NCBI RefSeq assembly: GCF_003268595.1
Contig: NZ_CP029797.1
Location: forward strand, 889,501-953,500
DNA from: Paraliobacillus zengyii
GTDB taxonomy: Bacteria > Bacillota > Bacilli > Bacillales > Amphibacillaceae
DNA: 64,000 nucleotides
Direction of reading: 5' to 3'
Positions 10,360 to 63,860 of the stretch are shown in pieces. Below the pieces are notes generated by a model, which saw only the letters and a list, made by a program, of their open reading frames with translations, did no database searches and had not been told where the DNA came from. Position 1 is the stretch's first letter. Each line of letters begins with the position of its first letter. The position numbers and the translations under genes were made by a program.

Positions 10360-10770
10360 CTCGCTACGTCAGCAAATGGTTTCGCTTTCCGTGGGCACAA
10401 CCTCAGCTATCTATAGAAGCAAAGAACGCTTCTATAGAGGATCTTCGGTTCGTGCTATTCCCACAGGAGTCTCAACCATTTGCTTCCTTCGCTGATTAGT
10501 GGATTTATTTTTAAGTGTAAGACAGAATCATGTCGAAATATTTTCAAGAAACTAATGATTAATGTGTTTATTTGTAGTTCATAAAATGTTTAAAGACAAA
10601 ACTAGCGGATCAAGTGAAATGGGCGACACTCCTGCAGGAACAGCAAATGTTTTCGATGGGATGAGTAATCGCAATCCCACGGGCTGAAGATCCACTCGGA
10701 AGCTTTTTTTCTTCCGAGTTAGCTGAAGCCGTGCCTGCGGAAAGGGAGCCCATTTCGCTTGAGGAGCGGG
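10360..10770. repeat. Paired palindrome locus A (elements A1 and A2)
   Basis: A1 (arms at 10371-10381 and 10474-10484, AGCAAATGGTT / AACCATTTGCT) and A2 (arms at 10611-10623 and 10749-10761) are convergent palindromes 126 nt apart. Each has a box reading CTTTCCGTGGGCAC (or the related CTGCGG form) on one arm and CCCACAGGAGTC / CTCCTGCAGGAAC on the other, and an inner self-complementary hairpin. A2 also has the side hairpin with the conserved loop TGCGATTACTC on the minus strand. The locus lies between the yhaP terminator and yhaO and is a near-identical inverted copy of locus E. Short reading frames across it are not genes. Confidence 0.85.
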
Positions 10771-10954
10771 CATAAATTCTGTTGTATTGCAATTTATATA
10801 AAGAATGTTATGTCGCAGTTTCTATCCAATTTGCCAGAGGAGTTGCCATGTTGAGTGCGCAAATTAAACTTCAAATTTGGTTTTTGAGATTTTCTTGTTA
10901 TGTCAACACATATATATAAATTTCACTTTACGAAAGTTGCATATTTATAATAAA

Positions 10955-10968
10955 CGAACGTGCATTCG
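10955..10968 (+). promoter_or_regulatory. Candidate LexA (SOS) box upstream of yhaO
   Basis: CGAACGTGCATTCG fits the Bacillus LexA consensus CGAACRNRYGTTYG at 13 of 14 positions. It sits inside the longer near-palindrome AACGAACGTGCATTCGTT (10953-10970). It lies about 60 nt before the yhaO start and directly after a TATAATA stretch (about 10946). My recollection is that the B. subtilis yhaO operon is also in the SOS regulon. Confidence 0.6.
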
Positions 10969-11028
10969 TTCTGTCTGTCTGCTACAATAAAAGTAAAATT
11001 ACATGTAAAACTAGAGAGGAATTTTTTT

Positions 11029-12267
11029 ATGCAAGAAAACATTTCTTTTATCCATTGTGCGGATTTACATATAGATAGCCCGTTTGTGGGCCTAAGTTAT
11101 TTACCAGATAAACTTTTACAAGAAGTGAAAAAGAGTACATTTGACGCATTAAACCGCTTGGTTGAAACAGCTATTGCCAAACAAGTCGACTTTGTTCTAA
11201 TGGTTGGGGATATCTTTGATCAAACAGTGCAAAGTGTTTATGCACAAATGCAATTTTTGAAAGCATGTGAAGTTTTAGAAAAAGAGAATATTATGGTATA
11301 TGTTTCATTTGGAAACCATGATTATCTTAATCGTAATTTATTAACTTTCCAATTTCCAGATAATGTTCGATTGTTTACAGAAGAGAATGTTCAATCTTTT
11401 ATTTTTGAAAGAGACCAAAAACAAGTGGCGACTATATATGGATTCAGCTATTTGCAACGAGCCGTTATAGAGAACAAAACAGAGCAATATAAAATAGTAA
11501 GTGATACACCTTATCATATTGCCATGCTTCATGGTAGTGTGGCACAGCAAACAGACCATGATACGTACGCACCATTTCAATTAAGTGAATTGACGGAAAA
11601 GGGATTTGATTATTGGGCATTAGGTCATATACATAAACGGCAGCAACTTAAAAATGACCCGCCAGTAGTATATGCCGGAAATACACAAGGACGTTCTAAA
11701 AAAGAAACAGGAGAAAAAGGCTGTTACCATGTTGAATTAGGGGAAAACAGTAATTCCTTGACATTTTGCCCACTTCAAGTAATTCGTTTTGAAGATATTG
11801 AAGTTGATTTAAAAATGTGTACGAGCTTACAAGCTTTAGAGCAAATTGTTGATGAAGAAGTCCAGCAAATAGCTACTCTATTTGGAAAATCAGTTATTAG
11901 GTTGCGTTTTTATAATTACATAGAAGATGTGGAAACATGGTACTACGAAGAGATGTTAACAGATGTGATTGAGTTTATTAATGAGAAAATGATGAGTTAT
12001 CAAGACTGGGTGTGGATTCAAGAAGTTAAACTATCTAAACAGAATCGTACAGATAAGGAGAAATTGCGTCAAGGCGAGGATTTCCTAGGGGAATTATTGC
12101 GAACTTTTGACGAAGATAAGGATTTTGATGAAACAGTTAAATCTGTATGGAAACATCGTCAAGCAAGAAAATTCCTAGAAAAGTTAACAGACGAAGAAAA
12201 GATGGAAGTTAAGACAGAGGCAGAAAATCTGTTAATCTATCAACTGTTAAGGAAGGAAGAAAGATGA
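11029..12267 (+). CDS. yhaO: SbcD-like DNA exonuclease / metallophosphoesterase YhaO
   Basis: 412 residues from ATG 11029 (AGAGAGGA 8 nt upstream); an upstream in-frame start would place coding sequence over the SOS-like box. The five calcineurin-like motifs are present: HCADLHIDSP (residues 9-18), VGDIFD, SFGNHDY, LHGS and GHIHKR, which bind the two metals of Mre11/SbcD nucleases. The partner ATPase gene yhaN overlaps by 4 nt, so the two products should form an Mre11-Rad50-like complex acting on DNA ends. The SOS-like box upstream agrees with a repair role. Confidence 0.9.
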   Translation: MQENISFIHCADLHIDSPFVGLSYLPDKLLQEVKKSTFDALNRLVETAIAKQVDFVLMVGDIFDQTVQSVYAQMQFLKACEVLEKENIMVYVSFGNHDYLNRNLLTFQFPDNVRLFTEENVQSFIFERDQKQVATIYGFSYLQRAVIENKTEQYKIVSDTPYHIAMLHGSVAQQTDHDTYAPFQLSELTEKGFDYWALGHIHKRQQLKNDPPVVYAGNTQGRSKKETGEKGCYHVELGENSNSLTFCPLQVIRFEDIEVDLKMCTSLQALEQIVDEEVQQIATLFGKSVIRLRFYNYIEDVETWYYEEMLTDVIEFINEKMMSYQDWVWIQEVKLSKQNRTDKEKLRQGEDFLGELLRTFDEDKDFDETVKSVWKHRQARKFLEKLTDEEKMEVKTEAENLLIYQLLRKEER

Positions 12268-15206
12268 AAATATTAGAGGCAAATATATTTGGATTTGGCA
12301 AGTGGAAGCAAGTTACTTTTGATCTATCAGGTGCTTCTTTTATTGTAATTGCTGGACAAAATGAATCAGGGAAATCAACGTTAAGACAATTTATGCTATT
12401 TATCTTATTTGGAATGCCACCTAAACAGCGTAGTCAGTTTCTACCGAAAACTGGAGGGGAAATGGGTGGTACGTTAAAGATTCAGACAAAAGATGTAGGG
12501 GTTTTTACAATTGAGCGCATTCATGACCGAAACAAAGCACAGGCAACCTGTTATGATCAAGATGGTATGGTACATGGAGAAGAGTGGTTAAAAGAAAGAC
12601 TAAGTGGTGTGGATGCACAAACATTTGCTGATATTTTTTCTTTTGATTCTATTTCTCTTCAACGCTTACAACAAATAAAACAAACAGATATTGGCGAAGT
12701 ATTGCTAGGTGTTGGTATGACGGGAACGGATCAAATATATTGGACAGAAAAATGGTTAGATCAACAATTACAAGATTTGTTTAGGCCACAAGGAAAAAAA
12801 CCAGCGATGAATCAATTGATTGATACAATGGAAGAAAAAAGAAAACAGTTAGAACAAATGGAACAAGAGACACAACTTTATAAAGAGAAACAAAAAATTA
12901 AAGTATCTTTAGAAGAGACAGTAGCAATTTCCCAAGAAAAAAGTGAGCGTTTACGTAAAGAAAAGCAAAAAACGGAACAAAAACTACAGCTACATGAAGT
13001 GATTGAAGCTTTTCATCACACACAAAATAAGTTAAGCGATTTACCAGAAGAGATTTCTTTTCCAGAGAATGGCCTGGAACGTTATCAGCAGATAAAAGAA
13101 CAAATATTACCATTAAAAAGTGAGTTAACCGTAATAAACTTGAATATAGAAAAAGAGACAAAGCAACTCCAAGAGATAAATAATAAACAATTATCTACAG
13201 CCTCAATAGATGAATTAGAAAAGCTTAAGGACCAACGTTATGTGTATCATGAGAATTTAAACAAGTATTCATTTAACGTACAAGCACAAGAAGAATTAGC
13301 TAGACAGTTAACGCATGAAATGGAACAATTACAGATCGGTCTGACTTTGGAGCAATTATCAGATTTATCCTTACCGTTTGCTACAGAGGATATATGGCAG
13401 CATTTAAAAGAAGAACAAGAAGACGTAAGGGCAGGGTTAGCTCAGATAGAAACAGAATTAAAGGAGATCCAAGAGAATAAAGGATTATTAGAAAAAGAAC
13501 GAGAAACACTTGAAAATAAACAACTCGATCAAGCTACTATCAACGAATTGAACAAACAAATAGAGGATTATCAAAAATCACTGTCTAGCAATCAACAACA
13601 GAATAATAATTGGGAAACGCTTAGAAACAAGAGATTGAAGAGTACAAACCGTTTTAGTTTTTATAGTTTAATTCTACTAGTAATAAGCACTATAGCGGGA
13701 TTTCTATTATCTAATTACTATTTATATGCTATAAGTGCATTTTTTTTAGTAATTGGTTCGATACATCAGGTTTTTACACGTCAATCTATTCAGGCTATGG
13801 AACCGCTATTTGATCGTCATAAACAAGTGGATACCAATCATGCTAGTAGTACAGAGAATATTAAGGAAACAGAAAACGTGATAGCCGAACAAGTTGAATT
13901 GAACAAAAGATTAACAAAAATAAATGATAGTCTAAGAAATATTCAATTAGCAAAGTTAAAAGCAGATGAAAGAAGACAATTTTTCATACAAAGAAAAACT
14001 ATCTTAGAATCAAAAAGTAAGGAGCAAATGGAACAATTTCCTTTTCTAAAAGAAATATCAGTCGGTTATTGGTCAAAGCTTTTTAATCATCTAACAAAAG
14101 TAGTAGAAAAAGTAGACAACTTGGACAAACTAAATAAAGATATCTTGCAAGCAAGTAAGGATATTAATAATTATGAACAGTGGTTAGCGAATGTTTTTCA
14201 TTTGAATTATCAAACACAATCACATCAACCTACTAAAATGCTTGAGTTGATAATTGATGAAGTTGATAATCAAAAACACTTAAAACAAAGAGAAAAACTG
14301 TTACATAATAATAGAACAAATTTAATAACACAACGAGAAACAATTGAATCAAGAATCAAGCCATACGAGCATGAGATTAATCAATTATGGAATAAGGCAA
14401 ACGTAAGTGATGAAGAAAGTTATATAGCTAAAGGATATCAAAAGGAAGAATTAGTAAAAAAGAGTACAGATTTAAAGTCGTATGAACGGCAAATTAATAC
14501 GTTTTTATCTAAAGAAGAATGGGAAAGATTATTAGCAGGAGAGCAAATTCAAAAGCATGAGATAGAAAATGCACTATATCAAATTACAAATAAGTTAAAA
14601 GAAGTACAGAGTCAAATCGAAATGAATCAACAACGATTAGCAGACATTCATTCTGAAATAAGGCGGGTTGAAATATCGACGTCATTTCAAGATGAGAAAC
14701 ATCACTATTATGAGTTGAAAAATGAACTACAGGAACAGGCAAAACAATGGGCTACCTATCAATTAGCTAAGGAAAAATTACAAGAGACAAAAAATATTTA
14801 TCAACGCTCTTTTTTACCGAAAGTATTGGAACAAACAACCGAACACTTTAAAAAATTAACAGACGAAAAGTATAAAAGTGTTTTCCTTACAGATCAAGAG
14901 TCAATGTTACAAGTAGAAGATGTTTTAGGATTACGTTTTATCGTGACTGAGTTATCACAGGGAACAAGAGATCAATTGTATATTGCCTTGCGCATTGCTT
15001 TAAGTGAAATGATACAAAAAAAACAACAAATGCCATTTTTTATTGATGATGCATTTGTTCATTTCGATCCAAATCGTTTGGATAAGATGTATGCGATCTT
15101 TAAGCAACTAAGTACGAAACAACAAATTATCTTATTTACTAGTGACTATAATTGGAGTAGTGAAACAGTCTATGATGGGTATGACTTTCAATTGGTTCGA
15201 ATTTAA
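12264..15206 (+). CDS. yhaN: SbcC/Rad50-like ATPase YhaN with membrane hairpin in the coiled coil
   Basis: 980 residues. N-terminal Walker A GQNESGKST (about 31-39), two long coiled-coil stretches rich in Lys/Glu/Gln (about 185-455 and 520-870), then the ABC signature LSQGTRDQL (about 897) and Walker B FFIDDAFVHFD (about 928). Where Rad50/SbcC carries a zinc hook (CxxC), this protein instead has a hydrophobic hairpin (about 465-503, two segments separated by SNYYLY). This suggests that the coiled-coil tip sits in the membrane. ATG overlaps the yhaO stop (ATGA). It ends the operon; a hairpin follows. Confidence 0.9.
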   Translation: MKILEANIFGFGKWKQVTFDLSGASFIVIAGQNESGKSTLRQFMLFILFGMPPKQRSQFLPKTGGEMGGTLKIQTKDVGVFTIERIHDRNKAQATCYDQDGMVHGEEWLKERLSGVDAQTFADIFSFDSISLQRLQQIKQTDIGEVLLGVGMTGTDQIYWTEKWLDQQLQDLFRPQGKKPAMNQLIDTMEEKRKQLEQMEQETQLYKEKQKIKVSLEETVAISQEKSERLRKEKQKTEQKLQLHEVIEAFHHTQNKLSDLPEEISFPENGLERYQQIKEQILPLKSELTVINLNIEKETKQLQEINNKQLSTASIDELEKLKDQRYVYHENLNKYSFNVQAQEELARQLTHEMEQLQIGLTLEQLSDLSLPFATEDIWQHLKEEQEDVRAGLAQIETELKEIQENKGLLEKERETLENKQLDQATINELNKQIEDYQKSLSSNQQQNNNWETLRNKRLKSTNRFSFYSLILLVISTIAGFLLSNYYLYAISAFFLVIGSIHQVFTRQSIQAMEPLFDRHKQVDTNHASSTENIKETENVIAEQVELNKRLTKINDSLRNIQLAKLKADERRQFFIQRKTILESKSKEQMEQFPFLKEISVGYWSKLFNHLTKVVEKVDNLDKLNKDILQASKDINNYEQWLANVFHLNYQTQSHQPTKMLELIIDEVDNQKHLKQREKLLHNNRTNLITQRETIESRIKPYEHEINQLWNKANVSDEESYIAKGYQKEELVKKSTDLKSYERQINTFLSKEEWERLLAGEQIQKHEIENALYQITNKLKEVQSQIEMNQQRLADIHSEIRRVEISTSFQDEKHHYYELKNELQEQAKQWATYQLAKEKLQETKNIYQRSFLPKVLEQTTEHFKKLTDEKYKSVFLTDQESMLQVEDVLGLRFIVTELSQGTRDQLYIALRIALSEMIQKKQQMPFFIDDAFVHFDPNRLDKMYAIFKQLSTKQQIILFTSDYNWSSETVYDGYDFQLVRI

Positions 15207-15213
15207 CTTATTA

Positions 15214-15251
15214 TTACACATAATTTAATATTTTTATTAAATCATGTGTAA
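15214..15251 (+). terminator. Hairpin after yhaN
   Basis: Stem TTACACAT / ATGTGTAA, extended by ATTTAAT / ATTAAAT. There is no clean T-run after it, so its role as a terminator is likely but not certain. Confidence 0.5.
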
Positions 15252-15329
15252 ACTATTGGAAAAGTTAGCGTTTGCATTTAAGATAGGTAGTGTCAGATTA
15301 AAAATTTTCACATGTTGGAGGAGCAAATA

Positions 15330-15884
15330 GTGCCAAGTTATCAAGGTAAAGAGGAATGGATAGGTTATGAAGAGATAATGGATAAGTTTATCCAAGTAAT
15401 AGCAAAGAATATGAATCTTTATGGAATTACACCATCTGTTGGTCGTTTATATGGCACATTATATTTCAATGATGGTCCAATGACTTTGGATGAAATGCGT
15501 GATGCCTTAGAAATGAGTAAGACAAGTATGTCAACAGGTGTAAGAGCGTTGTCAGAAATGAAAATGGTTGAACCTGCATTTAAAAAAGGTGAAAGAAAGG
15601 ATTTATATAAATCTGAAGAAGACTGGTATAAATCATTCACATCTTTATTTGGTAACCGTTGGAGTCACCATACAGAATCAAACATTGAAGAAGCAGAAGA
15701 AACAATCCAAGCATTAGAACGGATTCGTCAACAGACAGATGAACAAGATTTAATTGATAAAATCACATTGGATATTGATCGTCTGCGCTATGCTCAAAAT
15801 TACTATAAATGGTTAATAAGGTTTATTAACGTTGTTGAATCTGGTGAAATTTTTAATTTTATACCAAAAGATGATATTGAGTGA
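15330..15884 (+). CDS. GbsR/MarR-family transcriptional regulator
   Basis: 184 residues from GTG 15330. GGAGGAG (15317-15323) is spaced 7 nt from this GTG, while the ATG at 15312 would lie inside that ribosome binding site. The winged-helix region (about 45-95: MTLDEMRDALEMSKTSMS, then KKGERKDLY) is that of the GbsR/OpcR branch of MarR proteins, which sense choline or compatible-solute state and repress glycine-betaine synthesis or uptake genes. Here no gbsAB or opu gene is adjacent; the gene is isolated between terminators. A paralogue lies at 19478-19981. Confidence 0.82.
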   Translation: MPSYQGKEEWIGYEEIMDKFIQVIAKNMNLYGITPSVGRLYGTLYFNDGPMTLDEMRDALEMSKTSMSTGVRALSEMKMVEPAFKKGERKDLYKSEEDWYKSFTSLFGNRWSHHTESNIEEAEETIQALERIRQQTDEQDLIDKITLDIDRLRYAQNYYKWLIRFINVVESGEIFNFIPKDDIE

Positions 15885-15933
15885 AAAAATAAAGTAGGTA
15901 AGGAAAAGGATCCTTAACCTACTTTATTTTTTC
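15884..15933. terminator. Bidirectional terminator between gbsR-like gene and yhaM
   Basis: About 20-bp stem with loop AAAGGA, A-run and T-run on either side. Confidence 0.9.
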
Positions 15934-17151
15934 AGTGTTTTCATAACGGCTGTCTAAATAATCAACGATGTGTATGATATAACCCTCCATTGTTTGCGGT
16001 TGTCTGACCGCAGCTCCCCATTCAGGTAAGCCATGGTGGCAAAGGATACAATGTGACATATTGTGGATTGCCTCAATAGGAACGACTATTTTATCCGTTT
16101 CAATTACTTTTGTAAGTAATAAGACACCATAAGGGATATGACCAACGAGAACACCTAATGGGTCCATCGTTATACCGGCCTGTTTTCGGTCTTGTGTAAT
16201 GCTCATATCCGCTGTCGGATACAAAAAGGAAAATGGATCAAACGATTTACCTGCATAATCATATTCTAATAATTTCCCTATATCATGATATAAAATACTT
16301 GTGATTAATAGATCAGCATTAAGTGGTGTTTCATGGTGCTTCATCATTCCTTGCAACATGTGATAAAGGTGGTCAATTGTATCTTTCCATACTGTAGCAT
16401 GTTGATTGTCTATTTCGTCTTGAAAGTTTGACCATAACTCATTTTTATAGGCCTTTTCCACAACATTAATTAATTTTATCGTTGCTTGAAAAGGATTGGC
16501 ATCCAATGTTGTAATATAACGTGCAAAACGCATTAACCCAACAGTATGTTTTAATAAGCCCCCTAAATAATTATGATGGTAGCCTTTTGCAGCAGGTGCC
16601 ATACGAAAGTCTTTCCAAAATCGTCGCAAAGCGGCAAATGCAATTTCCTTATATGGATCGGATAATTCAGATAAGTAAGCAAATAACTCTGTTGTTAAAT
16701 CTTCTAAGCTCTGTTGTGTGTAAGGTAAAAGCGTAAATGGATTTACTTCTTCTTTACATACTTGTATCTTTTGAATAGTGACCGATTTATTACCTAGGAA
16801 CGCATCAACAACTCCCTCAATGTCAAATACAGTATATTTTTCTAGAAGAGGTAGGTTCTCTGTGATTGCCCCTTGATTATCCCACATTTTAGCTTGTATC
16901 ATTCCGTTATTATTACTGAAAGATAAACGTAAATATTGTTTGTTTGTTTTCGTTAACTTCACCTCAAAATCATTTAACAACAAACGTTCTTTTACTTTAG
17001 TACCCTGTTCTTCTTCTTGGATATTGAAGAAAGACTCCCCATTAGGCAAATTAGGTGGGGGAAACGATTCAAGGATTTCTTGTTTCTTTTCTGCTGAAAT
17101 AGAATATGTTATTGGTACAAATTGATAAAAGTATGTTGTATCTTCTGGCAT
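15919..17151 (-). CDS. yhaM: 3'-5' exoribonuclease YhaM, enlarged form
   Basis: 410 residues, against about 314 for B. subtilis YhaM. An N-terminal extension of roughly 60 residues precedes an OB-fold nucleic-acid binding region (about 60-135). A C-terminal HD domain has HHNYLGGLLKHTVG (about 190-203), SILYHDIGKLLEYDYAG and a late CHHGLPEWG. There is also an insertion of about 45 residues between the first His motif and the HD motif. YhaM-family enzymes degrade RNA (and ssDNA) from the 3' end with a metal-dependent HD site. It sits next to prsA as in B. subtilis, but convergent to the gbsR-like gene instead of in the yhaON operon. Confidence 0.8.
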   Translation of the reverse strand: MPEDTTYFYQFVPITYSISAEKKQEILESFPPPNLPNGESFFNIQEEEQGTKVKERLLLNDFEVKLTKTNKQYLRLSFSNNNGMIQAKMWDNQGAITENLPLLEKYTVFDIEGVVDAFLGNKSVTIQKIQVCKEEVNPFTLLPYTQQSLEDLTTELFAYLSELSDPYKEIAFAALRRFWKDFRMAPAAKGYHHNYLGGLLKHTVGLMRFARYITTLDANPFQATIKLINVVEKAYKNELWSNFQDEIDNQHATVWKDTIDHLYHMLQGMMKHHETPLNADLLITSILYHDIGKLLEYDYAGKSFDPFSFLYPTADMSITQDRKQAGITMDPLGVLVGHIPYGVLLLTKVIETDKIVVPIEAIHNMSHCILCHHGLPEWGAAVRQPQTMEGYIIHIVDYLDSRYENTEKIK

Positions 17152-17314
17152 GCTCTATCACTCCATTATAAAAAAAGATCAGTAGTTCATTTTTGTGTTT
17201 AAATAAAAGCTAACATTAGAGTGGTTTAACAAAGACTAAACCCTTTTGAATTAGTGTAACTTCATTGTATCGTAATTAGAGACGATTGCGTAGAAAAATT
17301 GTAATAAGTAGAAA

Positions 17315-17350
17315 AAAGACTAGCATCATTTACTCTAATGCTAGTCTTTA
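17315..17350 (-). terminator. Terminator after prsA
   Basis: Stem AAAGACTAGCAT / ATGCTAGTCTTT; on the minus strand it is followed by a T-rich run. Confidence 0.8.
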
Positions 17351-17359
17351 GTCTTATAA

Positions 17360-18471: not shown

Positions 18472-18492
18472 TTTCATTATATAGAGTGATTG

Positions 18493-18782: not shown

Positions 18783-18788
18783 TGATTA

Positions 18789-25406: not shown

Positions 25407-25552
25407 TTATATTACTCCCAGTCGTGCACTATTGCCGAATGCGAAGTATCTAATTATTATAACAAATCTAGTATTGAATAAACAGATTAAATTTACGTTC
25501 TTTCGCGAAATTGTTCCTTTTACTATTCGAACTTGATAAAAACTTAGACTTT

Positions 25553-26005
25553 ATTACCCGCTACGCTCCACAAGTAAAATGGGCTCGCTTTCCGTGGGCA
25601 AGGCTTCAGCTAACTCGGATAAGCAAAAGTCGCTTTCCGAGTGGATCTTCAACTTGTGGGATTGCAATTACTCATCCCACCCTAAAACATTTGCTGTTCC
25701 CGCAGGAGTGTCATCCGTTTTCTTCCTTCGCTGGACAGAACAAATATAATACAAAATACGATATCTACTGGCTCCGAAATTTTTAATACGCTTATGATAG
25801 TGTTTAGTTAGAATATCATAAAAGGCCTGTTATCGTTGATGAAGCAAATTCATCAATAAACATATCACCGACTAGCGATAAAATATACGACGACTCCTGC
25901 AGGAACAGCGCGATCTGAAGATCCACTTCGTAAAGTGCTTTTTCTTTACGAAGTTAGCTGAAGACGTGCCTGCGGAAAGCGTCGTGTATTTTTAGAGCGA
26001 GTAGT
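25553..26005. repeat. Paired palindrome locus B (elements B1 and B2)
   Basis: B1 (about 25570-25733) carries the CTTTCCGTGGGCA box, inner hairpin, side hairpin with loop TGCAATTACTC, and CCCGCAGGAGTG box. B2 (25881-25991) is a shorter convergent element with arms AAATATACGACG / CGTCGTGTATTT and no side hairpin. B1 arms have decayed on the right. The 148-nt spacer shares blocks (CTACTGG, AAATTTTTAAT, CGCTTATGA) with the spacers of loci C and D. The locus lies between trpP and hit, both on the minus strand. Confidence 0.8.
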
Positions 26006-26164
26006 AGATGGTAATTCAGAAGCAATTTTTAAGAGTGTAGAGTAGTTATTTGAGGGTGATATCTAATTTAAATACTATTCAGTTCAATTCGGTCTTTATC
26101 TCTTGGGGAAATCTTACACGCTTGTGGTCAGGAACTTCGTCGTATTAATAGAAAGAATTAGATA

Positions 26165-34330: not shown

Positions 34331-34745
34331 ATGTCGCAGTAGATAGAAACTGTGACGTAGATTCCTTACCCGCTCCACAATTGAAATGGGATCGCTTTCC
34401 GTGGGCACGGCTTCAGCTAACTCGGATAAGCATAATTCGCTTTCCGAGTGGATCTTCAGCCCGCGCAGTTCCCACTGGAGTCTCACCCATTTCAATTGCT
34501 CCGCTGGATAGGCGTTAAAAGTGATACATCGTCTACTGGTCATAAATTTTAATTGCGCTTATGAAAACAGCTATTCACGTTATGCTCATTGATTGTAGCG
34601 TAGGACAGTCGACTCCTGCGGGAAAAGCAACAGCTGAAAATCCCGCAGGAAGCGCTTTTTGCTTCCGAGGAAGTTGAAGCGTTGGGTCTGCGATTACTCG
34701 ACCCATCGAAAAGACTTGCCCGCGGAAAGCGACTGACCGAAGCGA
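34331..34745. repeat. Paired palindrome locus C (elements C1 and C2)
   Basis: C1 (arms 34378-34391 and 34486-34498, CAATTGAAATGGG with its complement) and C2 (about 34602-34738) converge with a 104-nt spacer. C1 lacks the side-hairpin block (about 34 nt) that its twin D2 still has. C2 has the side hairpin in the covarying form TGGGTC - loop TGCGATTACTC - GACCCA. A small extra hairpin (GTCGCAGT / AACTGTGAC, about 34333-34354) precedes the unit. The whole is a near-identical inverted copy of locus D and sits between convergent liaR and hmoB. Confidence 0.85.
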
Positions 34746-34836
34746 AAATCAACATGGCGTTTTACGACATAGCTGATGATAAAAGTGATGTAAGACTCGA
34801 TATTTGGGCGGAATATATCAAGTTTTTCTAAAAATC

Positions 34837-45807: not shown

Positions 45808-45879
45808 TTCAGATTGATCAAGATAGTTGTTTATGTTTCTTGCGTATGAGTTTAATTACGAGACAACCGCCATGTTGAT

Positions 45880-46320
45880 TTTTGCTTCAGTCAGTCGCTT
45901 TCCGCGGGCAAGTCTTTTCGATGGGTCGAGTAATCGCAGACCCAACGCTTCAACTTCCTCGGAAGCAAAGTGCGCTTCCTGCGGGATTTTCAGCTGTTGC
46001 TTTTCCCGCAGGAGTCGACTGTCCTACGCTACAATCAATCAGCATAACGTGAACAACTGTCATAAGCACAATAAAAATTTTGACCAGTAGACAATATATC
46101 ACTTTTAACACCTATCCAGCGGAGCAATTGAAATGGGTGAGACTCCAGTGGGAACAGCAAATGTTTTCGATGGGATGAGTAATCGCAATCCCACAGGCTG
46201 AAGATCCACTCGGAAAGCGGTTTTTGCTTATCCGAGTTAGCTGAAGTCGTGCCCACGGAAAGCGATCCCATTTCAATTGTGGAGCGGGTAAGGAATCTAT
46301 GTCACAGTTTCTCTCAATTT
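45880..46320. repeat. Paired palindrome locus D (elements D1 and D2)
   Basis: D1 (45889-46024) and D2 (46125-46279) converge with a 101-nt spacer. Both carry a side hairpin: D1 in the GACCCA form, D2 in the TCCCA form, each with the complement of loop TGCGATTACTC on this strand. Outer arms CAATTGAAATGGG (D2) are identical with C1. The unit including spacer and the small CACAGTTT hairpin remnant at its right is a near-identical inverted copy of locus C. Located between convergent comK and yhjD. A frame of 87 codons here recurs in locus C and is an artefact of the repeat. Confidence 0.85.
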
Positions 46321-46375
46321 CGAATATTGAAAAGCAACAATATTTGCGAAAAGAGGATTAATTTAAAATGTAAAC

Positions 46376-55572: not shown

Positions 55573-55576
55573 TTTT

Positions 55577-55613: not shown

Positions 55614-55619
55614 CAAATT

Positions 55620-56100
55620 CGCAGTAGATCGAAACTGCGACGTAGTTAGACTTTATTACCCGCTACGCTCCACAAGTGAAATGGACTCGCTTTCCGTGGG
55701 CACGGCTTCAGCTAACTCGGATAAGCAAAGACCGCTTTCCGAGTGGATCTTCAGCCCGTGGGATTGCGATTACTCATCCCATCGAAAACATTTGCTGTTC
55801 CTGCAGGAGTGTCGCCCATTTCACTTGATCCACTGGTTTTGTCTTTAAACATTTTATGAACTACAAATAAACACATTAATCATTAGTTTCTTGAAAATAT
55901 TTCGACATGATTCTGTCTTACACTTAAAAATAAATCCACTAATCAGCGAAGGAAGCAAATGGTTGAGACTCCTGTGGGAATAGCACGAACCGAAGATCCT
56001 CTATAGAAGCGTTCTTTGCTTCTATAGATAGCTGAGGTTGTGCCCACGGAAAGCGAAACTATTTGCTGACGTAGCGAGTAAGACCAGATTGTTACGTCTT
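55620..56100. repeat. Paired palindrome locus E (elements E1 and E2)
   Basis: E1 (arms 55673-55684 and 55815-55827, CAAGTGAAATGG with its complement) holds the side hairpin with loop TGCGATTACTC. E2 (arms 55954-55964 and 56057-56067) is the short type with inner stem CTATAGAAGC / GCTTCTATAG. Convergent, 127-nt spacer. From about 55670 to 56112 it is a near-identical inverted copy of locus A, spacer included; they differ mainly in the inner hairpin of E1/A2. A small hairpin TCGCAGT / AACTGCGA (about 55619-55639) precedes it. It lies between convergent addA and gerPF. Confidence 0.88.
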
Positions 56101-56189
56101 AGTTGATGGTTATTCGGCGATGATCTAGTTGGGTTTATCGTTTTGTTTAATAATTAATTGTTATGTAAAAGTGGGGTTCCCCACTTATT

Positions 56190-56405: not shown

Positions 56406-56452
56406 TTTGACACACCTACTTTTTCGTGTATTTATCATATCGTATGCATATA

Positions 56453-56824: not shown

Positions 56825-57014
56825 TATTTTCTCCAACATCCATTCGACTAAGTGGCAACAATGAGCCAACAATATAGGAGTCTGGTGGTGTATCGTAATA
56901 CGATTGGAGTTGCATCGAATCATTGTCTCCAACTAAGAAAACGGATGAAGAAGATATTGCTGTGATATCTACATTACCAACGTGTAATTTCCAATTATGC
57001 ACTTCAAAATTCAT
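56808..57014 (-). CDS. gerPD: Spore germination protein GerPD
   Basis: 68 residues, a little longer than the 58 of B. subtilis GerPD because of the C-terminal tail DVGENNVTHE that overlaps gerPE. Core motif ISSSSVFLVGDNDSM and YDTPPDSYIVGSLLPL match GerPD. ATG preceded by AAAGGAGA. Inner spore coat. Confidence 0.92.
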   Translation of the reverse strand: MNFEVHNWKLHVGNVDITAISSSSVFLVGDNDSMQLQSYYDTPPDSYIVGSLLPLSRMDVGENNVTHE

Positions 57015-57019
57015 AAGAA

Positions 57020-57583
57020 CTAATCTCCTTTATTTGTTTTTTTCTCAAAATAGAGACGTAAGGAATGTGGAATTTCAGCTTGAATTTGTTGCTGAATGTA
57101 AGTCTCTAATTGTTGATTATTTTTAATTTGTTGCTTTATTCCTTCCTGTTCATAGTAAGTTACACGTCCTGGTAGTTGTTTTCGAATATCTTCTAAAAGC
57201 AACTGTCTGTTAGACTCATCTAGTTGGTACTGATATTCATGAACGAGTTGTTGCAACATCGTATCTCCTTCACGTGTTAGATAATTATCTAATTCATGGA
57301 TTAACTGTTGATGATTTTGTTTTTGACTGCGAAGTGGAAGTGAAAAATTATCCATTTTAGTGAAGTCTTCTGGTGCTAAACCAATATGCAATGTGCCGTC
57401 CATCCGTTCAATTTTTAATTGATCGAAATGATATTCTAACTTTTCAATTGTAGTTTGTTGGTTTGTGGGTTGTTGATATTCCATTTGATCAAGTCTTTCT
57501 GTAAGTGTTTGAATTTTTTTATCTTGTTCTATTATATGTTGATGCAGTTGCTGAATGTATTCATACCATGCGGGATCGTTCAC
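57020..57583 (-). CDS. gerPC: Spore germination protein GerPC
   Basis: 187 residues, GTG start. The N-terminal part is a Gln-rich coiled coil (about 8-60), then KIERMDGTLHIGLAPEDF and a long helical C-terminus ending in PHSLRLYFEKK, as in GerPC, the one larger member of the gerP set. Gene order PB-PC-PD is as in B. subtilis. Confidence 0.92.
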   Translation of the reverse strand: MNDPAWYEYIQQLHQHIIEQDKKIQTLTERLDQMEYQQPTNQQTTIEKLEYHFDQLKIERMDGTLHIGLAPEDFTKMDNFSLPLRSQKQNHQQLIHELDNYLTREGDTMLQQLVHEYQYQLDESNRQLLLEDIRKQLPGRVTYYEQEGIKQQIKNNQQLETYIQQQIQAEIPHSLRLYFEKKTNKGD

Positions 57584-57658
57584 ACCTTACCCCTCCTCGC
57601 TACAAGTCAAGTGTATAGTTATCTTCTACTAATATATGTGTCAGTAGCCCAATTGTGC

Positions 57659-57868
57659 TTACGATGGGGGAATAAGTGGTACTAGTGGTGTATCTACACC
57701 AGGCTGTAATTCAGCGGGTTCAGCGAGATCTTGGTATTCACCTGTGTTATAGAGCTGGGATGAGGCTTGGATTGATCCAGCGCTTCCAATTTGAAGAACA
57801 GAAGAGTTTGAAATACTGCCGATCTTCAACATATGAATAGCTATTGATTGATGAACGGTTAAATCCAC
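57659..57868 (-). CDS. gerPB: Spore germination protein GerPB
   Basis: 69 residues, GTG start at 57868 behind GAGGTGTGA. Core HMLKIGSISNSSVLQIGSAGSIQ followed by a Pro/Glu-rich tail is the GerPB type (motif given in part). The gene lies 17 nt after gerPA. The C-terminal PLVPLIPPS is also typical. Confidence 0.92.
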   Translation of the reverse strand: MDLTVHQSIAIHMLKIGSISNSSVLQIGSAGSIQASSQLYNTGEYQDLAEPAELQPGVDTPLVPLIPPS

Positions 57869-57885
57869 TTCTCACACCTCAATCT

Positions 57886-58104
57886 TTATAAACTCGATAT
57901 CACTTGATCGAATTTGTCTTGGTCATTTATTGTTGTATTCGTTTGATCTAACTGAATGGTAATACCGTCTCCAGTGTTAAAGGAACCACCACCTGCAAAA
58001 GTTTTTGCACTAGAATTGGGTTGCATCATGTAAACATCACCTATATGAAAAATACTTGATGTACCAATCGTTATTACTTTCACAGCGCCGACTATAGCAG
58101 GCAT
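57886..58104 (-). CDS. gerPA: Spore germination protein GerPA
   Basis: 72 residues; MPAIVGAVKVITIG start, SSIFHIGDVY and SFNTGDG motifs mark GerPA. First gene of the operon, ATG behind AAAGGAGGAG. A weak sigma-K-like promoter can be drawn on the minus strand (an AC about 16 nt before CATAAACTG, the -10 having one mismatch to CATAnnnTA), which would agree with late mother-cell expression; I give that site low weight. Confidence 0.94.
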   Translation of the reverse strand: MPAIVGAVKVITIGTSSIFHIGDVYMMQPNSSAKTFAGGGSFNTGDGITIQLDQTNTTINDQDKFDQVISSL

Positions 58105-58140
58105 TTTAACTCCTCCTTTTTTAGCAGTTTATGAAACTGA

Positions 58141-58169
58141 TTCAATTCTGTGTCATTTTCCTATACAAT
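58141..58169 (+). promoter_or_regulatory. Candidate sigma-A promoter of the DUF418 gene
   Basis: TTCAAT (58141-58146), 17-nt spacer, TACAAT (58164-58169); start near 58176, leader about 35 nt. Confidence 0.5.
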
Positions 58170-58210
58170 AGAATGTATGACAGTTTAGATGATTAGGGAG
58201 AGGCGATTTT

Positions 58211-59380
58211 ATGAATCAACAGGTATCACCTTTAACAGAAAAAAAGCGATTAACCTGGATTGATGCAGCAAGAGGATTTGCTATTCTTGGAATATTTATG
58301 GTCAATGTACCTGCTTTTAATGCTCCTTATTTTTTGTATGGTGGGGAGGATACCTTTTGGACATCTGGTATCGATCAAAGCATTCAAGTATTTATTGATA
58401 TTTTTTTTCAGGCTAGTTTTTATACGTTATTTTCCTTTTTATTTGGATTTGGAATTCAAGTAATAGTTGAAAATATCAAACGAAGAGAGCAGCCTGTTAA
58501 CAAACTGATTTTTCGACGTTTAGTCATACTAATTGGTTTCGGTTTGATTCATGCGTTTTTAATCTGGCATGGGGATATTCTGCTTACATATGGCATTATT
58601 GGTATGTTTCTGTTTTTATTCTTTAAAAGATCGAATCGGACATTGATTGCCTGGGCAATTAGCTTATTAACCATTCCGACGTTGTTATACACGTGGGCTT
58701 TGTATCCTTTTCGTGACCAATTGGGTGGCTATAACCTCACTGCGATCGAAGAAGCAGTTAATCGCTATGGATCAGGAAGTTTACTAGATATATGGGCACA
58801 GAATTTGCAAGATTGGTCTTACAGCAATGGTGTTTTCACTTACTTTATCTTAGCATGTAATCTGTTACCGTTATTTTTACTAGGAATGGTAACAGCTCGA
58901 AAGAAATGGTTGCATAATGTTGAAGCACACCAATCATTTTTGCATAAAGTCTGGTTCGTTTCCTTGGTATTGTTTGTTGGCATAAAAGCAGGATTATATA
59001 TATGGGGGAATCCAGCATGGTTATCCATGATTCAAGATAGTATTGGTGGGTCAGCATCAGCGATCTTTTACTTGACGACAATTACATTAGCGTATCAACG
59101 AACATTCTGGCAAAAAGTATTTAAGCCATTTACGTATGTAGGTCGAATGTCATTATCGAATTATATCTTCCAATCAATTGTATGCTTTTTCTTGTTTTAT
59201 TCGACTGGATTTGGGTTATATGGTAATATAAAACCACTTGGAAGTATCGGTATCGTATGCGCAGTTTACCTTGTTCAGATCTTGCTCAGCAGTATCTATG
59301 TGAAACGCTATCGTTTTGGTCCAATTGAGTGGGTATGGCGTCGTTTCATGTACATGGAGAAGTTACCGAACAAACGATAA
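58211..59380 (+). CDS. DUF418-family membrane protein (YeiB-like)
   Basis: 389 residues with about ten hydrophobic helices. The N-terminal RLTWIDAARGFAILGIFMVN and the C-terminal DUF418 domain (about 230-385, with TYVGRMSLSNYIFQS and RFGPIEWVWRRFMY) place it in the YeiB/DUF418 group, thought to be related to acyltransferase-like membrane proteins. Substrate unknown. GGGAGAGG before ATG. Divergent from the gerP operon. Confidence 0.88.
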   Translation: MNQQVSPLTEKKRLTWIDAARGFAILGIFMVNVPAFNAPYFLYGGEDTFWTSGIDQSIQVFIDIFFQASFYTLFSFLFGFGIQVIVENIKRREQPVNKLIFRRLVILIGFGLIHAFLIWHGDILLTYGIIGMFLFLFFKRSNRTLIAWAISLLTIPTLLYTWALYPFRDQLGGYNLTAIEEAVNRYGSGSLLDIWAQNLQDWSYSNGVFTYFILACNLLPLFLLGMVTARKKWLHNVEAHQSFLHKVWFVSLVLFVGIKAGLYIWGNPAWLSMIQDSIGGSASAIFYLTTITLAYQRTFWQKVFKPFTYVGRMSLSNYIFQSIVCFFLFYSTGFGLYGNIKPLGSIGIVCAVYLVQILLSSIYVKRYRFGPIEWVWRRFMYMEKLPNKR

Positions 59381-59406
59381 ATCTATAGTATAGGAGGAAA
59401 AAAGAA

Positions 59407-59791
59407 ATGATTCATTTACACATCACAGCATGGGTTCTAGCACTTATTTTATTTGCAGTTACCTTTTCATTCTACAAAAACAAAAAACAAAAAACAAAAA
59501 CCAGCGAAAATAATGCATATGATTACAAGACTTACCTATCTATTAATCTTATATTCTGGAGGCGACTTATTCTATAATTATATTGTCTCAGGTACTTGGA
59601 ATAGTTATATGGCGGAGTTGATTATCAAAGCTGCTGCAGGACTATGGGTAATCGCTTGCTTGGAAATCCTGTTAGTTCGATATGCAAAAGGGAAACCGAC
59701 GAAAGGATTCATGGTCCAATTAGCTGTCTCATTAGTAATTGTGCTTGCATTAGGGTTTGGCCGATTACCATGGGGATTTTTACCCTTATAA
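59407..59791 (+). pseudogene. yisL: yisL (UPF0344) disrupted by a 7-bp repeat expansion
   Basis: Starting at ATG 59407 (behind AGGAGG, about 59392), frame 1 reads MIHLHITAWVLALILFAV..., the YisL N-terminus, but continues into an unrelated peptide and stops near 59577. The rest of YisL (KIMHMITRLTYLLILYSGG onward, to 59791) is in frame 2. The change of frame falls in a run of CAAAAA(A) units. Deleting one 7-bp unit restores a single frame whose linker has the same length as in B. subtilis YisL. YisL is a four-helix membrane protein of unknown role. This may be a true disruption, a reversible switch, or a sequencing error. Confidence 0.8.
59475..59502 (+). repeat. Heptamer-like tandem repeat inside yisL
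   Basis: Four units C-A5, C-A6, C-A6, C-A5 followed by CC. Two are exact 7-bp copies (CAAAAAA, 59481-59487 and 59488-59494). Gain or loss of one unit moves the reading frame by one. Confidence 0.85.
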
Positions 59792-59865
59792 GATTGGAAG
59801 AAGAGAGAGTTTTACTCGTATTATATGAGTGGAACTCTTTTTATTTTGTTTCTATTAATTTTTCT

Positions 59866-59949
59866 GAAAGGTGCATATAATTTGCGGAAGGGATCATATA
59901 TTTCGCTGAAGGACGCATATAATTATCTAACGGCTCATATATTCCTTAT
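59866..59949 (+). repeat. Four degenerate 21-bp tandem repeats upstream of asnO
   Basis: Units start at 59866, 59887, 59908 and 59929. Each is 21 bp and has a purine-rich GAAGG-like start (AACGG in unit 4) and CATATAATT or CATATATT in the middle at the same offset. The last units also take part in a 12-bp inverted repeat (59919-59930 with 59950-59961) and an 8-bp one (59932-59939 with 59959-59966) that cannot form fully at the same time. The remainder of 59792-60055 shows nothing else I can name. Confidence 0.65.
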
Positions 59950-60055
59950 TTAGATAATTATGAGCCTTTAATAGTTGGCACATTCCCCGCCGCCCATCAT
60001 ATAAATAGACATAAGATTTATTTTTCAATATGCGAGAGGATGTGGTGATCAAATT

Positions 60056-61903
60056 ATGTGCGGTATAACAGGATGGATTGATTATCAAAAGGATTTAACT
60101 AAGTCCGAGCAAACAATAAAAAATATGGCAAATGCCTTGCAACATAGAGGGCCAGATGAACAAAAAGAGTGGATCGATACACATGTAGCGTTTGGACATA
60201 AGCGTTTGGTTGTTGTTGATCCTGCTGGTGGAAAGCAACCAATGCATTGTCTAAAAGAAGATAATGATTATGTGCTTGTTTATAACGGAGAACTCTATAA
60301 TACCGAGGATATCCGAACTGAATTACAAACACGCGGGTGGCACTTTGATTCACATTCTGATACAGAGGTATTGTTGAAAAGCTATATCGAGTGGAAGGAA
60401 GAGTGTGTAGAGAAATTTAATGGGATCTTTGCATTTGCTATTTGGGATTCTAAGAATGAAAAACTTTTTCTCGCTCGTGATCGTTTAGGTGTTAAACCAT
60501 TATTTTATACCGAAAAAAATGGTTCATTTCTTTTTGCTTCGGAAATCAAAGGACTACTAGCACATGAAGACGTAAAAGCCGTTCTAGATCAAGATGGAGT
60601 GAGTGAACTGTTAGCTCTTGGACCATCTAGAACACCTGGTAATGGCGTCTTTAAGGGTATTAATGAATTAAAAGCTGCACATGTTGGTATAGTCGACCGT
60701 AACGGTTTTCGTACAAAAAGGTATTGGAACGTTAAAAGCAAAGCCCATAAAGATAGTCTTGAGGAAACGGCAAAGCAAATACGTTTCTTACTTACAGATG
60801 CAGTAGAACGCCAACTCGTTTCTGATGTTCCAATTGGGACTTTTTTATCTGGTGGTGTTGATTCAAGTGCAATTACAGCAATTGCAGCAAATTATCTAAA
60901 AAAAGAAAAGCAGCAAACTCTCCCAACTTTTTCAATCGATTATGAAGATAATGCACGTTATTTTAAGAAAAGCACCTTCCAGCCAAACAGTGATGCAGAT
61001 TTTATAGGGAAAATGGTTGATGCATGCAAAACAGAACAGCATACGTATGTACTCGATAATGAAACGCTAGCCGACTTATTAAAAAATGCAGTTGAATACC
61101 GTGATCTTCCTGGAATGGCGGATGTTGATAGTTCACTGTATTGGTTCTGTGGAAAAACAAAAGAAGAGATAACAGTTGCGCTTTCCGGAGAATGTGCGGA
61201 TGAGATATTTGGTGGGTATCCCTGGTTTTACAGGGAAGAAGATTTAGATCGTGAAGGCTTCCCTTGGATTCGATCAGCAGATGTTCGAACCGGTTTACTA
61301 ACAAAAGAATGGCAAGATAAACTAGACCTACATGAATATATGCTCGCTCGTTACCAAGAAACAGTTGACGAAACACCTGTTTATGATGGTGAAAGTGAAA
61401 TCGATAAGAAGAGAAGACAAATGTTCTATTTGAATATGCATTGGTTTATGCCAACATTATTAGATCGAAAAGATCGTATGAGCATGGGGGCAAGTTTCGA
61501 AGCGCGCGTCCCGTTTAGTGATCACCGTTTAGTTGAATATGTATGGAATATTCCGTGGGAAATGAAGACATATCAAGGTAGAGAAAAGGGCATTCTAAGA
61601 AAAGCTTTAGAAGGGTTACTTCCAGATGAAATTTTATATCGAAAGAAAAGTCCATATCCGAAGACACATCACCCTGCTTATACAGCTGCGGTTGTAGGAT
61701 GGATGAATCAAATTATTGCTGATCCAAATGCGCGATTATTTGATTTATTTGATAAAGAATCAATTAAAAAACTTGTCGCTAGTGAAGGAAAAGAAATTGA
61801 TACACCATGGTTTGGTCAACTTATGCGAGGGCCTCAATTACTAGCTTATTTAGGGCAAGTAGATTACTGGTTACGGAAATATGATATTGAAATAGAAAAG
61901 TAA
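60056..61903 (+). CDS. asnO: Glutamine-hydrolysing asparagine synthetase (AsnO/AsnB type)
   Basis: 615 residues, as AsnO (YisO) of B. subtilis. N-terminal class II amidotransferase domain with nucleophile Cys2 (MCGITGW), NGELYN (about 78) and GDSHTDTEV-like SHSDTEVLL; C-terminal synthetase domain with the PP-loop SGGVDSSAI (about 269-277) and GECADEIFGGYPWF (about 380-393). Makes Asn from Asp, ATP and Gln. AsnO in B. subtilis is linked to sporulation; its place beside yisL and the MATE gene matches yisL-yisO-yisQ. ATG about 6 nt after GGTGATC. Confidence 0.93.
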   Translation: MCGITGWIDYQKDLTKSEQTIKNMANALQHRGPDEQKEWIDTHVAFGHKRLVVVDPAGGKQPMHCLKEDNDYVLVYNGELYNTEDIRTELQTRGWHFDSHSDTEVLLKSYIEWKEECVEKFNGIFAFAIWDSKNEKLFLARDRLGVKPLFYTEKNGSFLFASEIKGLLAHEDVKAVLDQDGVSELLALGPSRTPGNGVFKGINELKAAHVGIVDRNGFRTKRYWNVKSKAHKDSLEETAKQIRFLLTDAVERQLVSDVPIGTFLSGGVDSSAITAIAANYLKKEKQQTLPTFSIDYEDNARYFKKSTFQPNSDADFIGKMVDACKTEQHTYVLDNETLADLLKNAVEYRDLPGMADVDSSLYWFCGKTKEEITVALSGECADEIFGGYPWFYREEDLDREGFPWIRSADVRTGLLTKEWQDKLDLHEYMLARYQETVDETPVYDGESEIDKKRRQMFYLNMHWFMPTLLDRKDRMSMGASFEARVPFSDHRLVEYVWNIPWEMKTYQGREKGILRKALEGLLPDEILYRKKSPYPKTHHPAYTAAVVGWMNQIIADPNARLFDLFDKESIKKLVASEGKEIDTPWFGQLMRGPQLLAYLGQVDYWLRKYDIEIEK

Positions 61904-61904
61904 A

Positions 61905-61932
61905 AGAAGCAGAGGATTACTCCTCTGCTTCT
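61905..61932. terminator. Bidirectional terminator between asnO and yisQ
   Basis: Perfect stem AGAAGCAGAGGA / TCCTCTGCTTCT with loop TTAC. Confidence 0.88.
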
Positions 61933-63278
61933 TTAGTATAAACAAATGATTTGCGGATCCAAACTTTTGAACGCCACCGACCAAGCATTAAAATTCCGCG
62001 AAGCCATTCGTCAGCAATAAAGCCAATCCAAACACCGACTAGTCCAAGCTCTAAAAATATTCCGAAAAACCATGCGAAAGTAACACTGACTCCCCACATA
62101 GATAAAACGCCAACAAATACAGGGAATTTAACATCACCAGCTGCACGCAAGGAATTAATCACAACTAAATTAAAAGCACGTCCTGGCTCTAGAATGATTG
62201 TTATGAGTAGGAGCAATGCACCTGATTCAATAATAGAGTCATTATTAGTGAAAATACCGAGTAAAAAATCACTAGAAAAATAGACAACAACGGCTGCAAA
62301 AGTACTTACTACAATCGCAATTTGGAGACTTCTAATTCCACGTTTGTATGCAGAATCAATGTCACCCGCACCAATCATATGACCAATTAATATTTGAGTT
62401 CCTTGCCCGATTGCAATCGAAAACAAGAGAATAAACATCATAATATTTTGGACATATACTTTCGTTGTAATTGCTGCTGTACCGAGCTGTGCGATGAAAT
62501 AAGTGATTACCATTTGGCTACCATTATAAGATAATTGCTCTCCAGCTGAAGGAATACCAATGTTTAATAAGTGTCTCACGTTTGCTTTTTCATATTTATA
62601 AAAGGATTGAAACGGTAAGGTTCCTTTATTTCGTTTCACTAAAATAACAAGTAGTAGTAGAAATCCTAAAAATCTACTAATGATCGTGGAATAGGCAACT
62701 CCTTCCACGCCAAGAACTGGGAAATCAAACGGTCCAAAAATCACAAAATAATTTCCAATAATATTAATGATATTCATACCGATTGTTACGTACATAGTAT
62801 CCTTAGTAAATCCGTAACTACGCAAGATTGCAGCAACGGTCATAATCAAAGCTTGCACAAAGATTAAACCACCAACAATATTCATATAGGCATCTGCATC
62901 GGCCATTAACTCATTAGGTAAGTCCATAAGGTTAAGTAACGAGCGGCTAAATATAAATAAGCCAAGACTTAATAATAAGGAAAAAATTAAATTAAGGCTA
63001 ATTGATGTGACTGCAATTTTGCCAGCGACAAGTGCATTATCAGCACCAAGATTCTGTGCAATCAGTATTGCAGCACCAGCCGCAACAAAACCAAACATAA
63101 CAATCACAACAGATAATATTTGATTTGAGACGCCGACTGCTGCAACAGCATTATCTGAGTATTGACTGAGCATTAAGGTATCAGCGTTTCCCATCAACAT
63201 ATGAAGTAGAATTTCAATGAAAATTGGCCAGGTTAAAGCGTATAAGGTCATTTTTTGAGGTGTATTCGATTTATTCAA
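61917..63278 (-). CDS. yisQ: MATE-family multidrug/Na+ exporter YisQ
   Basis: 453 residues from TTG 63278, which has AAAGGAG 7 nt upstream; the longer frame to 63446 would add 56 mostly polar residues and pass the ribosome binding site. Twelve membrane helices in two homologous halves; motifs NADTLMLSQYSDNAVAAVGV (helix 1-2) and GQGTQILIGHMIGAGD (helix 8 region) are typical of NorM/DinF MATE exporters that expel cations or drugs against Na+ or H+. Convergent with asnO. Confidence 0.9.
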   Translation of the reverse strand: MNKSNTPQKMTLYALTWPIFIEILLHMLMGNADTLMLSQYSDNAVAAVGVSNQILSVVIVMFGFVAAGAAILIAQNLGADNALVAGKIAVTSISLNLIFSLLLSLGLFIFSRSLLNLMDLPNELMADADAYMNIVGGLIFVQALIMTVAAILRSYGFTKDTMYVTIGMNIINIIGNYFVIFGPFDFPVLGVEGVAYSTIISRFLGFLLLLVILVKRNKGTLPFQSFYKYEKANVRHLLNIGIPSAGEQLSYNGSQMVITYFIAQLGTAAITTKVYVQNIMMFILLFSIAIGQGTQILIGHMIGAGDIDSAYKRGIRSLQIAIVVSTFAAVVVYFSSDFLLGIFTNNDSIIESGALLLLITIILEPGRAFNLVVINSLRAAGDVKFPVFVGVLSMWGVSVTFAWFFGIFLELGLVGVWIGFIADEWLRGILMLGRWRSKVWIRKSFVYTKEAEE

Positions 63279-63439
63279 AAAATCACTCCTTTTCCGTAAA
63301 AAAAATAAAAAGTTAACGTTTTCATAAAACCACACGATAATAACTTTACTTCTCCATGAAGGAAAAGGCAATCTTTTTTTAAGGTTTTTGCAAACAACGT
63401 TGCTTTCACTATTCGAATTTGAGAGGAACTCTGTCGTAA

Positions 63440-63860
63440 GATGCATAAAGTTTTAACTCGCTCCTCAAATGAAAGTGACTCTCTTTCCGTAGGCACGGCT
63501 TCAGCTAATTCGGTAAAGAAAACCGCTTTACAGAATGGATTTTCAGCCCGTGGGATTGCGATTATTCATCCCATCGGAAACATGTGCTGTTCCTAATGGA
63601 GTCTCGTCAATTTCATTTGATATGCTAGTATTGGTCTATAACTGTATGACAGGTTATCCTTTTTCGAACTGAGTTGAAATCACCAGCAACTTTTTACTAA
63701 TTCTAAATATTGCTCTTTTCAACGAAGGAAGCAAAGGGTTGAGACTCCTGTGGGAACAGCACAAACCGAAGATCCTCTATTGAAGCGAACTTTGCTTCGA
63801 TAGATAGCTGAGGTTGTGTCCACGGAAAGCGAAACCCTTTGCTGACGCAGTGAGATCAAA
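63440..63860. repeat. Paired palindrome locus F (elements F1 and F2)
   Basis: F1 (arms 63465-63478 and 63607-63620) has the side hairpin with loop TGCGATTATTC. F2 (arms 63730-63740 and 63833-63843, AGCAAAGGGTT / AACCCTTTGCT) is the short type. Convergent, 110-nt spacer unlike that of the other loci. F2 arms differ from those of A1/E2 by a paired change (AT-pair to GC-pair), so pairing is kept. Located upstream of yisQ. Same overall orientation as locus E, but clearly more diverged. Confidence 0.82.

Follow-up and report, generated by a model that had tools for sequence, protein, structure and literature searches.

Intergenic hairpin doublets of Paraliobacillus zengyii as possible copies of a non-autonomous foldback-type mobile element

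We analyzed a 64,000-bp stretch of the Paraliobacillus zengyii genome (bases 889501-953500 of the single 3,728,451-bp contig, hereafter the window), in which six loci, named A to F, hold large paired palindromes. Self-comparison of the window sequence placed the six loci in one repeat family, and each locus is one unit of about 460-520 bp with a fixed polarity, running from an X end to a Y end. Comparison of near-identical copies showed that the X-to-Y doublet, without the outer frame present around some copies, is the recently copied unit. We therefore propose, with a confidence just short of even, that the loci represent copies of a mobile element of about 460-520 bp, non-autonomous and of foldback type, which has X and Y ends and two convergent halves. 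Within this proposal, the frameless copying of the X-to-Y unit between loci is shown by the near-identical copies. Copies would have reached new sites by insertion, with conversion of existing copies as the rival process, the folded DNA halves would be the form recognized by a trans-acting enzyme, and the frame, which resembles a miniature inverted-repeat transposable element (MITE) of the IS4/ISPepr1 type, may act as a vehicle for some copies.

A first-pass annotation of the window had reported two facing hairpins at every locus and no single element. Our box search agreed on both points, with convergent outer boxes at 6/6 loci and zero lone halves in the window. The locus positions given by that annotation also stood, but not their extent, since the two halves form one unit reaching up to 66 nt past the edges first drawn (our unit ends are accurate only to about 10 nt). 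The location between genes was right overall and failed for locus F, whose X end overlaps the opening bases of an open reading frame (ORF; 61917-63446) from the mechanical listing, and the flanking ORFs are indeed convergent at three of the six loci (C, D and E). Between loci, A and E shared 98% identity across 379 nt in inverted orientation (91% across the whole unit), and C and D shared 96% identity across 196 nt. The density of units in the window (6 units in 64 kb) was above the genome average, with at least about 90 loci in 3.73 Mb.

The X end reads GAGAGAAACTGCGACGTA and the Y end reads ATCATCAACTGCGACGTA; in typed ends, AACTGCGACGTAA is found about 35-80 nt outside the box and is common to X and Y, in inverted orientation. 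All 35 fully typed convergent pairs were X/Y pairs, the other 33 of 68 having at least one untyped end. Farther out, some copies carry terminal inverted repeats (TIRs), CTCAACTTTCGCAC on the X side and CTCAACTTTCTCAC on the Y side, together with 7-bp duplications such as TTAATAA, TGATTAA and TAAATTA. Among 66 elements of P. zengyii, this frame was recognized on both sides of 13, on one side of 18 and on neither side of 35, so that 31 of 66 retain at least one side. We then compared the inner units and observed 10 pairs with at least 90% identity, formed by 11 elements in four clusters. Near-identity between copies ended near X and Y, and the 110-nt flanks on both sides tested as unrelated in 10/10 pairs (z below 3 in comparison with shuffled sequences). 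In 6 of the 10 pairs, from three of the four clusters, a copy with the frame on both sides was matched with a frameless one, and in one further pair neither copy was framed. The genes on either side of locus C have aligned counterparts in P. quinghaiensis (G001), where they are 132 nt apart in comparison with about 620 nt in P. zengyii, the unit accounting for 462 nt of the latter. Because a 132-nt gap is too short for the 462-nt unit, the C unit is absent from P. quinghaiensis. We infer from locus C and from the framed-unframed pairs that insertion is favored, with conversion as its rival.

The halves combine conserved unpaired boxes with variable arms. A half begins with the outer arm, CTTTCC, the stem GYRGGCACGG, CTTCAGCTAACT, a hairpin and GGATCTTC, and continues with the stem partner carrying a CTGTT bulge and CCCAC, then AGGAGT and the inner arm. 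Its length is 85-150 nt, with a core of about 86 nt plus arms, and the two halves of a unit are separated by about 110 nt of spacer sequence that is not conserved. Between copies, the half cores were 77% and 72% identical (48% and 47% after shuffling), and both the spacers (47% against 44% shuffled) and the outside flanks (55% and 56% against 53% shuffled) were near background; 28 and 31 of 34 halves were recognizable and used for these identities. To analyze the arms, 26 halves free of M1 (a 34-nt insert presented below) were aligned without structure. We observed changes on both sides in 23/35 pairs, and 88% of the cells could pair in comparison with 37-42% when the partner was slid. The arm cells comprised 774 Watson-Crick, 11 G-T, 33 A-C and 75 other combinations; G-T, at 11 of 785 standard pairs, was thus rare and not favored over A-C. 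Since changes in the arms nearly always preserve Watson-Crick pairing, the halves probably act as folded DNA, and the scarcity of G-T would fit pairing of DNA rather than of RNA from this strand, with the reservation that related copies in the alignment do not count as independent. When copies were compared two by two, differences on one side only of a paired column were not rare (1333 one-sided, 3422 two-sided). Folded as DNA, unit E reached -98.3 kcal/mol (z -10.1), with z -2.4 for the hairpin at its X end; the Y end of A had no fold (z +1.3). The whole-unit folds favor pairing of the halves with each other, and covariation supports the hairpin within each half. The same arm type in both halves of a unit was rare, in about 3 of 68 convergent pairs with arm classes set by hand, and the differing arm types may reflect the instability of long perfect palindromes.

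The half cores, conserved beside frames and spacers of near-background identity, could also mean that the halves are maintained by selection for a function in the chromosome or as RNA (a terminator, an insulator or a protein-binding hairpin), mobility being secondary. The intergenic location, in three of six cases between convergent genes, and the presence of the half in 112 of 120 sampled family genomes are in agreement with such a function. However, no Rfam family reached its gathering score within the window, G-U pairs are few (the 11 of 785 above), and C is missing in P. quinghaiensis, the one genus mate examined; we consider a selected function improbable. The best by E-value of four weak Rfam matches at unit E was S. 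aureus tsr24 (window 55851-56095; 22.2 bits for a gathering score of 50, E 0.009).

Several observations weigh against the proposal. In the last three near-identical pairs (2136606-3504795, 2637783-2674087 and 899874-3447842), MITE frame sequence was recognized in both copies on a shared side. The flanks of these pairs are therefore diverged rather than unrelated, and gene conversion of the inner block is the simpler reading for them. The proposal is weakened because this concerns three of the ten near-identical pairs, and the ten pairs, given their few elements and clusters, are not independent. With a closer flank cut, the Y flanks of one pair proved related (0.69, shuffled 0.54), two near-identical alignments extended 89-117 nt past the boxes, and the A/E identity begins within a half, as would a conversion tract. 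The C unit could have been lost from P. quinghaiensis instead of gained in P. zengyii. For frameless units no convincing target duplication was detected (best 3/16 in a scan of many offsets), and no autonomous version of the doublet was found. As for folding, further pair types were not above shuffles (45 against 47.3), and 2/13 arm pairs were mostly unpaired.

The three pairs that share a frame on one side, their frames having diverged, also speak for a different mobile unit, namely the whole IS4/ISPepr1-type MITE of 650-750 bp, whose inner halves would be homogenized by gene conversion while the frames decay. We regard this as a real possibility, though clearly below even. Convergent CTCAACTTTC[GT]CAC-like TIRs were present on both ends of 7 P. 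zengyii elements, with a perfect 7-bp duplication in 3/7, and when related genomes were added 12 of 26 TIR pairs had a perfect 7-bp duplication (shuffled mean 0.81, maximum 6). The exact TIR pattern was detected in 33/120 family genomes and 21/46 genera, many genomes having one match only, and the reversed pattern gave four matches in total in the 120 genomes. In three genomes of other genera (G071, G075 and G093), the same TIRs bound an insertion sequence (IS) of 1529 bp with a 467-codon frame, broken in some copies, which belongs to NCBIfam IS4_4 (NF049925; 610 bits, cut-off 250). Duplications of 7 bp flanked 4/7 copies of this IS, two had 6 bp and one had none, and a YREK motif was recognized by eye. 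Its ends, length, duplication and YREK motif fit the ISPepr1 subgroup of the IS4 family, which the available part of PMC2266710 defines by YREK, a length of 1500-1600 bp, CT ends and direct repeats of 7-8 bp. Moreover, MITEs with perfect duplications hold halves in G014 and G099, and the 31 of 66 elements framed on at least one side are in line with a whole-MITE origin. In addition, IS4-type TIRs and a perfect 7-bp duplication bound a 1.3-kb element in G099 (L251), which holds a long array of AACTGCGCATT-type repeats that resemble the X/Y motif.

By contrast, the framed-unframed composition of six near-identical pairs and the sequence left at C, too short for a frame, argue against the whole MITE as the mobile unit. 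The flank identity of the 7 P. zengyii TIR pairs (36/49) was above the shuffled mean of 28.8 and not above the shuffled maximum of 38. An IS4_4-type transposase was seen neither in a PF01609 (DDE_Tnp_1) search of the P. zengyii genome, with 32/32 candidates scored, nor by tblastn on the extracted P. zengyii loci; the PF01609 matches were 7 IS231-like, 22 IS1182-like (NF033551 for the one copy tested) and 1 other. The whole MITE, suggested as the unit by the TIRs and 7-bp duplications, was given up in part: the TIR-to-TIR stretch fails as the recently copied unit, with near-identity ending near X and Y and 6 of 10 pairs joining a framed to an unframed copy. The first-pass annotation had considered that the pairs might be explained by a known MITE, recognizable by its terminal repeats and target duplications; this holds for the subset in an IS4/ISPepr1-type frame.

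To place the foldback-type unit in its genome, we searched P. zengyii with DNA queries and with a covariance model of the half, scoring the best 40 of 129-139 and the best 150 of 1618 candidates, respectively; all copy numbers are lower bounds. The model gave at least 142 matches. Box clusters were counted on the stretches around matches (392,683 bases), several copies found later standing outside the 96 clusters, and 70 of the 96 contained a convergent outer-box pair. The first-pass annotation had left room for single elements as common as pairs elsewhere in the genome; in these stretches pairs prevailed. Of the remaining 26 clusters, 24 were rechecked by BLAST, the two left aside being 884288 (IS-split) and 68501 (two same-direction boxes). 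Nine look single (less than 290 nt of similarity and no IS-split pieces), cluster 3465968 is a doubtful tenth single half, and in the others a degraded partner persists or the cluster is a fragment of an IS-split pair.

The half was detected in 44 of the 46 genera sampled in the family (Amphibacillaceae), the best 30 candidates per genome being scored and copy numbers again being lower bounds. Outside Paraliobacillus, a convergent partner box accompanied 48/98 half matches with enough sequence, in comparison with 1 for the reversed control. This count used the box search, since a first box model (28/121) missed the second half type. Sediminibacillus terrae has, about 430 nt on, a second half of a different build. 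In Amphibacillus jilinensis (G031), we observed a 303-bp element, one half between IS1182-type ends, at seven loci (L208-L214); its copies, six full and one partial, are about 98-100% identical, and this IS1182-type MITE is evidently recent, judging by sequence identity. By eye, we also recognized single halves having an IS1182-type end or frame in G078, G018, G035, G042 and G066, and both IS1182-type ends surrounded only 6/121 half matches outside Paraliobacillus.

The units are themselves hosts. M1 is a 34-nt hairpin insert, AAATGTTTTCGATGGGNNGAGTAATCGCANNCCC, with 71 genome matches (at most 3 mismatches) and 0 for the reversed pattern. Among 66 copies examined by eye in their context, it lay nearly always after GC, at several different sites and in one orientation, with no evident duplication. 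M1 is also present in P. quinghaiensis and, diverged, in G014; the window contains it at 7 places (Table 1). In addition, 7/7 IS231-like copies have one or both of their ends next to the outer box of a half, and these ends fit CAT-------AA--TAA by eye.

Table 1. Units, halves and inserts (window positions, except for the last row)
Feature	Position	Strand	Remarks
Unit A	10315..10836	-	522 bp; Y end left, X end right; zX 12.5, zY 11.0
Unit A frame	10315..10836	-	decayed IS4/ISPepr1-type MITE sequence on both sides
Unit B	25523..26041	+	519 bp; ends untyped, placed by default offsets
Unit C	34332..34793	+	462 bp; no frame recognized; missing at the orthologous P. quinghaiensis site
Unit D	45835..46325	-	491 bp; X end framed (z 4.7), Y end untyped
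Unit E	55617..56123	+	507 bp; no frame recognized
Unit F	63411..63900	+	490 bp; X end typed, Y end untyped by scan
X half of C	34372..34505	+	single hairpin as DNA, z -5.2
Y half of C	34610..34745	-	c-type arms; M1 within outer box
X half of E	55666..55834	+	outer box at 55679; M1 insert inside
Y half of E	55944..56080	-	single hairpin as DNA, z -3.6
M1 core in A	10658..10679	+	
M1 core in B	25657..25678	-	one mismatch to pattern
M1 core in C	34683..34704	-	
M1 core in D, Y half	45923..45944	+	
M1 core in D, X half	46172..46193	+	
M1 core in E	55759..55780	-	
M1 core in F	63551..63572	-	one mismatch to pattern
IS231-like copies	near 884752, 290794, 1018394, 1542500, 2979600, 3289720, 3311324 (contig, G000:C1)		

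Taken more broadly, these repeats might represent an undescribed class of mobile DNA, a suggestion that we hold as rather doubtful: a large box-bearing hairpin doublet, recognized as folded DNA and with halves in nearly all sampled genera, that would move without a RAYT (REP-associated tyrosine transposase; REP, repetitive extragenic palindromic) or a detectable target duplication, with IS4 and IS1182 MITEs as occasional vehicles, and parasitized by M1, with its fixed target after GC, and by IS231. We found no earlier description of these repeats in the literature searched, most subscription papers lying outside that search, and the main text of the P. zengyii paper (PMC12112907), in the part available, contains none of 'repeat', 'insertion sequence' or 'transpos'. 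If the proposal is correct, the REPIN idea, in which the doublet is the replicator, would extend to Gram-positive bacteria with no RAYT found, and the many copies in sequenced sister species would be material for finding the enzyme. The scarce G-T intermediates in covarying arms would offer a comparative sign of DNA as opposed to RNA hairpins, and the nesting (the 34-nt M1 within a hairpin, the hairpin within a doublet and the doublet sometimes within a MITE) would make insertion rules readable from sequence.

Among known systems, REPINs are REP doublets forming hairpins (PMC3116915, in the part available). The same part of that source describes features also seen here, namely two inverted palindromic parts with a variable spacer as a non-autonomous replicative unit, an intergenic location and a predicted single-stranded DNA fold. 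The first-pass annotation had likened the pairs to REPINs and BIMEs (bacterial interspersed mosaic elements) while noting no RAYT-like gene in the window. The likeness to REP doublets stands insofar as the doublet with its spacer behaves as a copied unit in the 10 near-identical pairs. Membership of the REPIN/BIME family does not: the search for Y1/HUH transposases with Y1_Tnp (PF01797) gave 0 matches genome-wide in P. zengyii (8/8 candidates scored), in agreement with that annotation, whereas 5/14 control genomes were positive, and the halves, which have boxes of their own, measure 85-150 nt in comparison with 20-40 nt for REPs in the material available. A true REPIN/BIME family mobilized by a RAYT, for which inverted hairpin-forming doublets copied as a unit would speak, is therefore very improbable. 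Here, moreover, the unit has two distinct ends, X and Y, its arm types mostly differ within a unit, and some copies lie inside DDE-type MITEs. The bcr1 and Bhal-1 repeats are likewise intergenic stem-loop repeats of Bacillaceae in tens of copies, but of 167 and 74 bp (PMC2267715, in the part available; compared by description only, not by sequence). The IS231 subgroup of IS4 is represented here by copies that are guests in the hairpins and not their mobilizer. Finally, the frames of some copies resemble the MITEs of the IS4/ISPepr1 group, with CT ends matching YT-AA-YTT---A and 7-bp AT-rich duplications (PMC2266710, in the part available). The difference is that here the frame encloses the recently copied unit, which in 6 of 10 near-identical pairs was copied without it.

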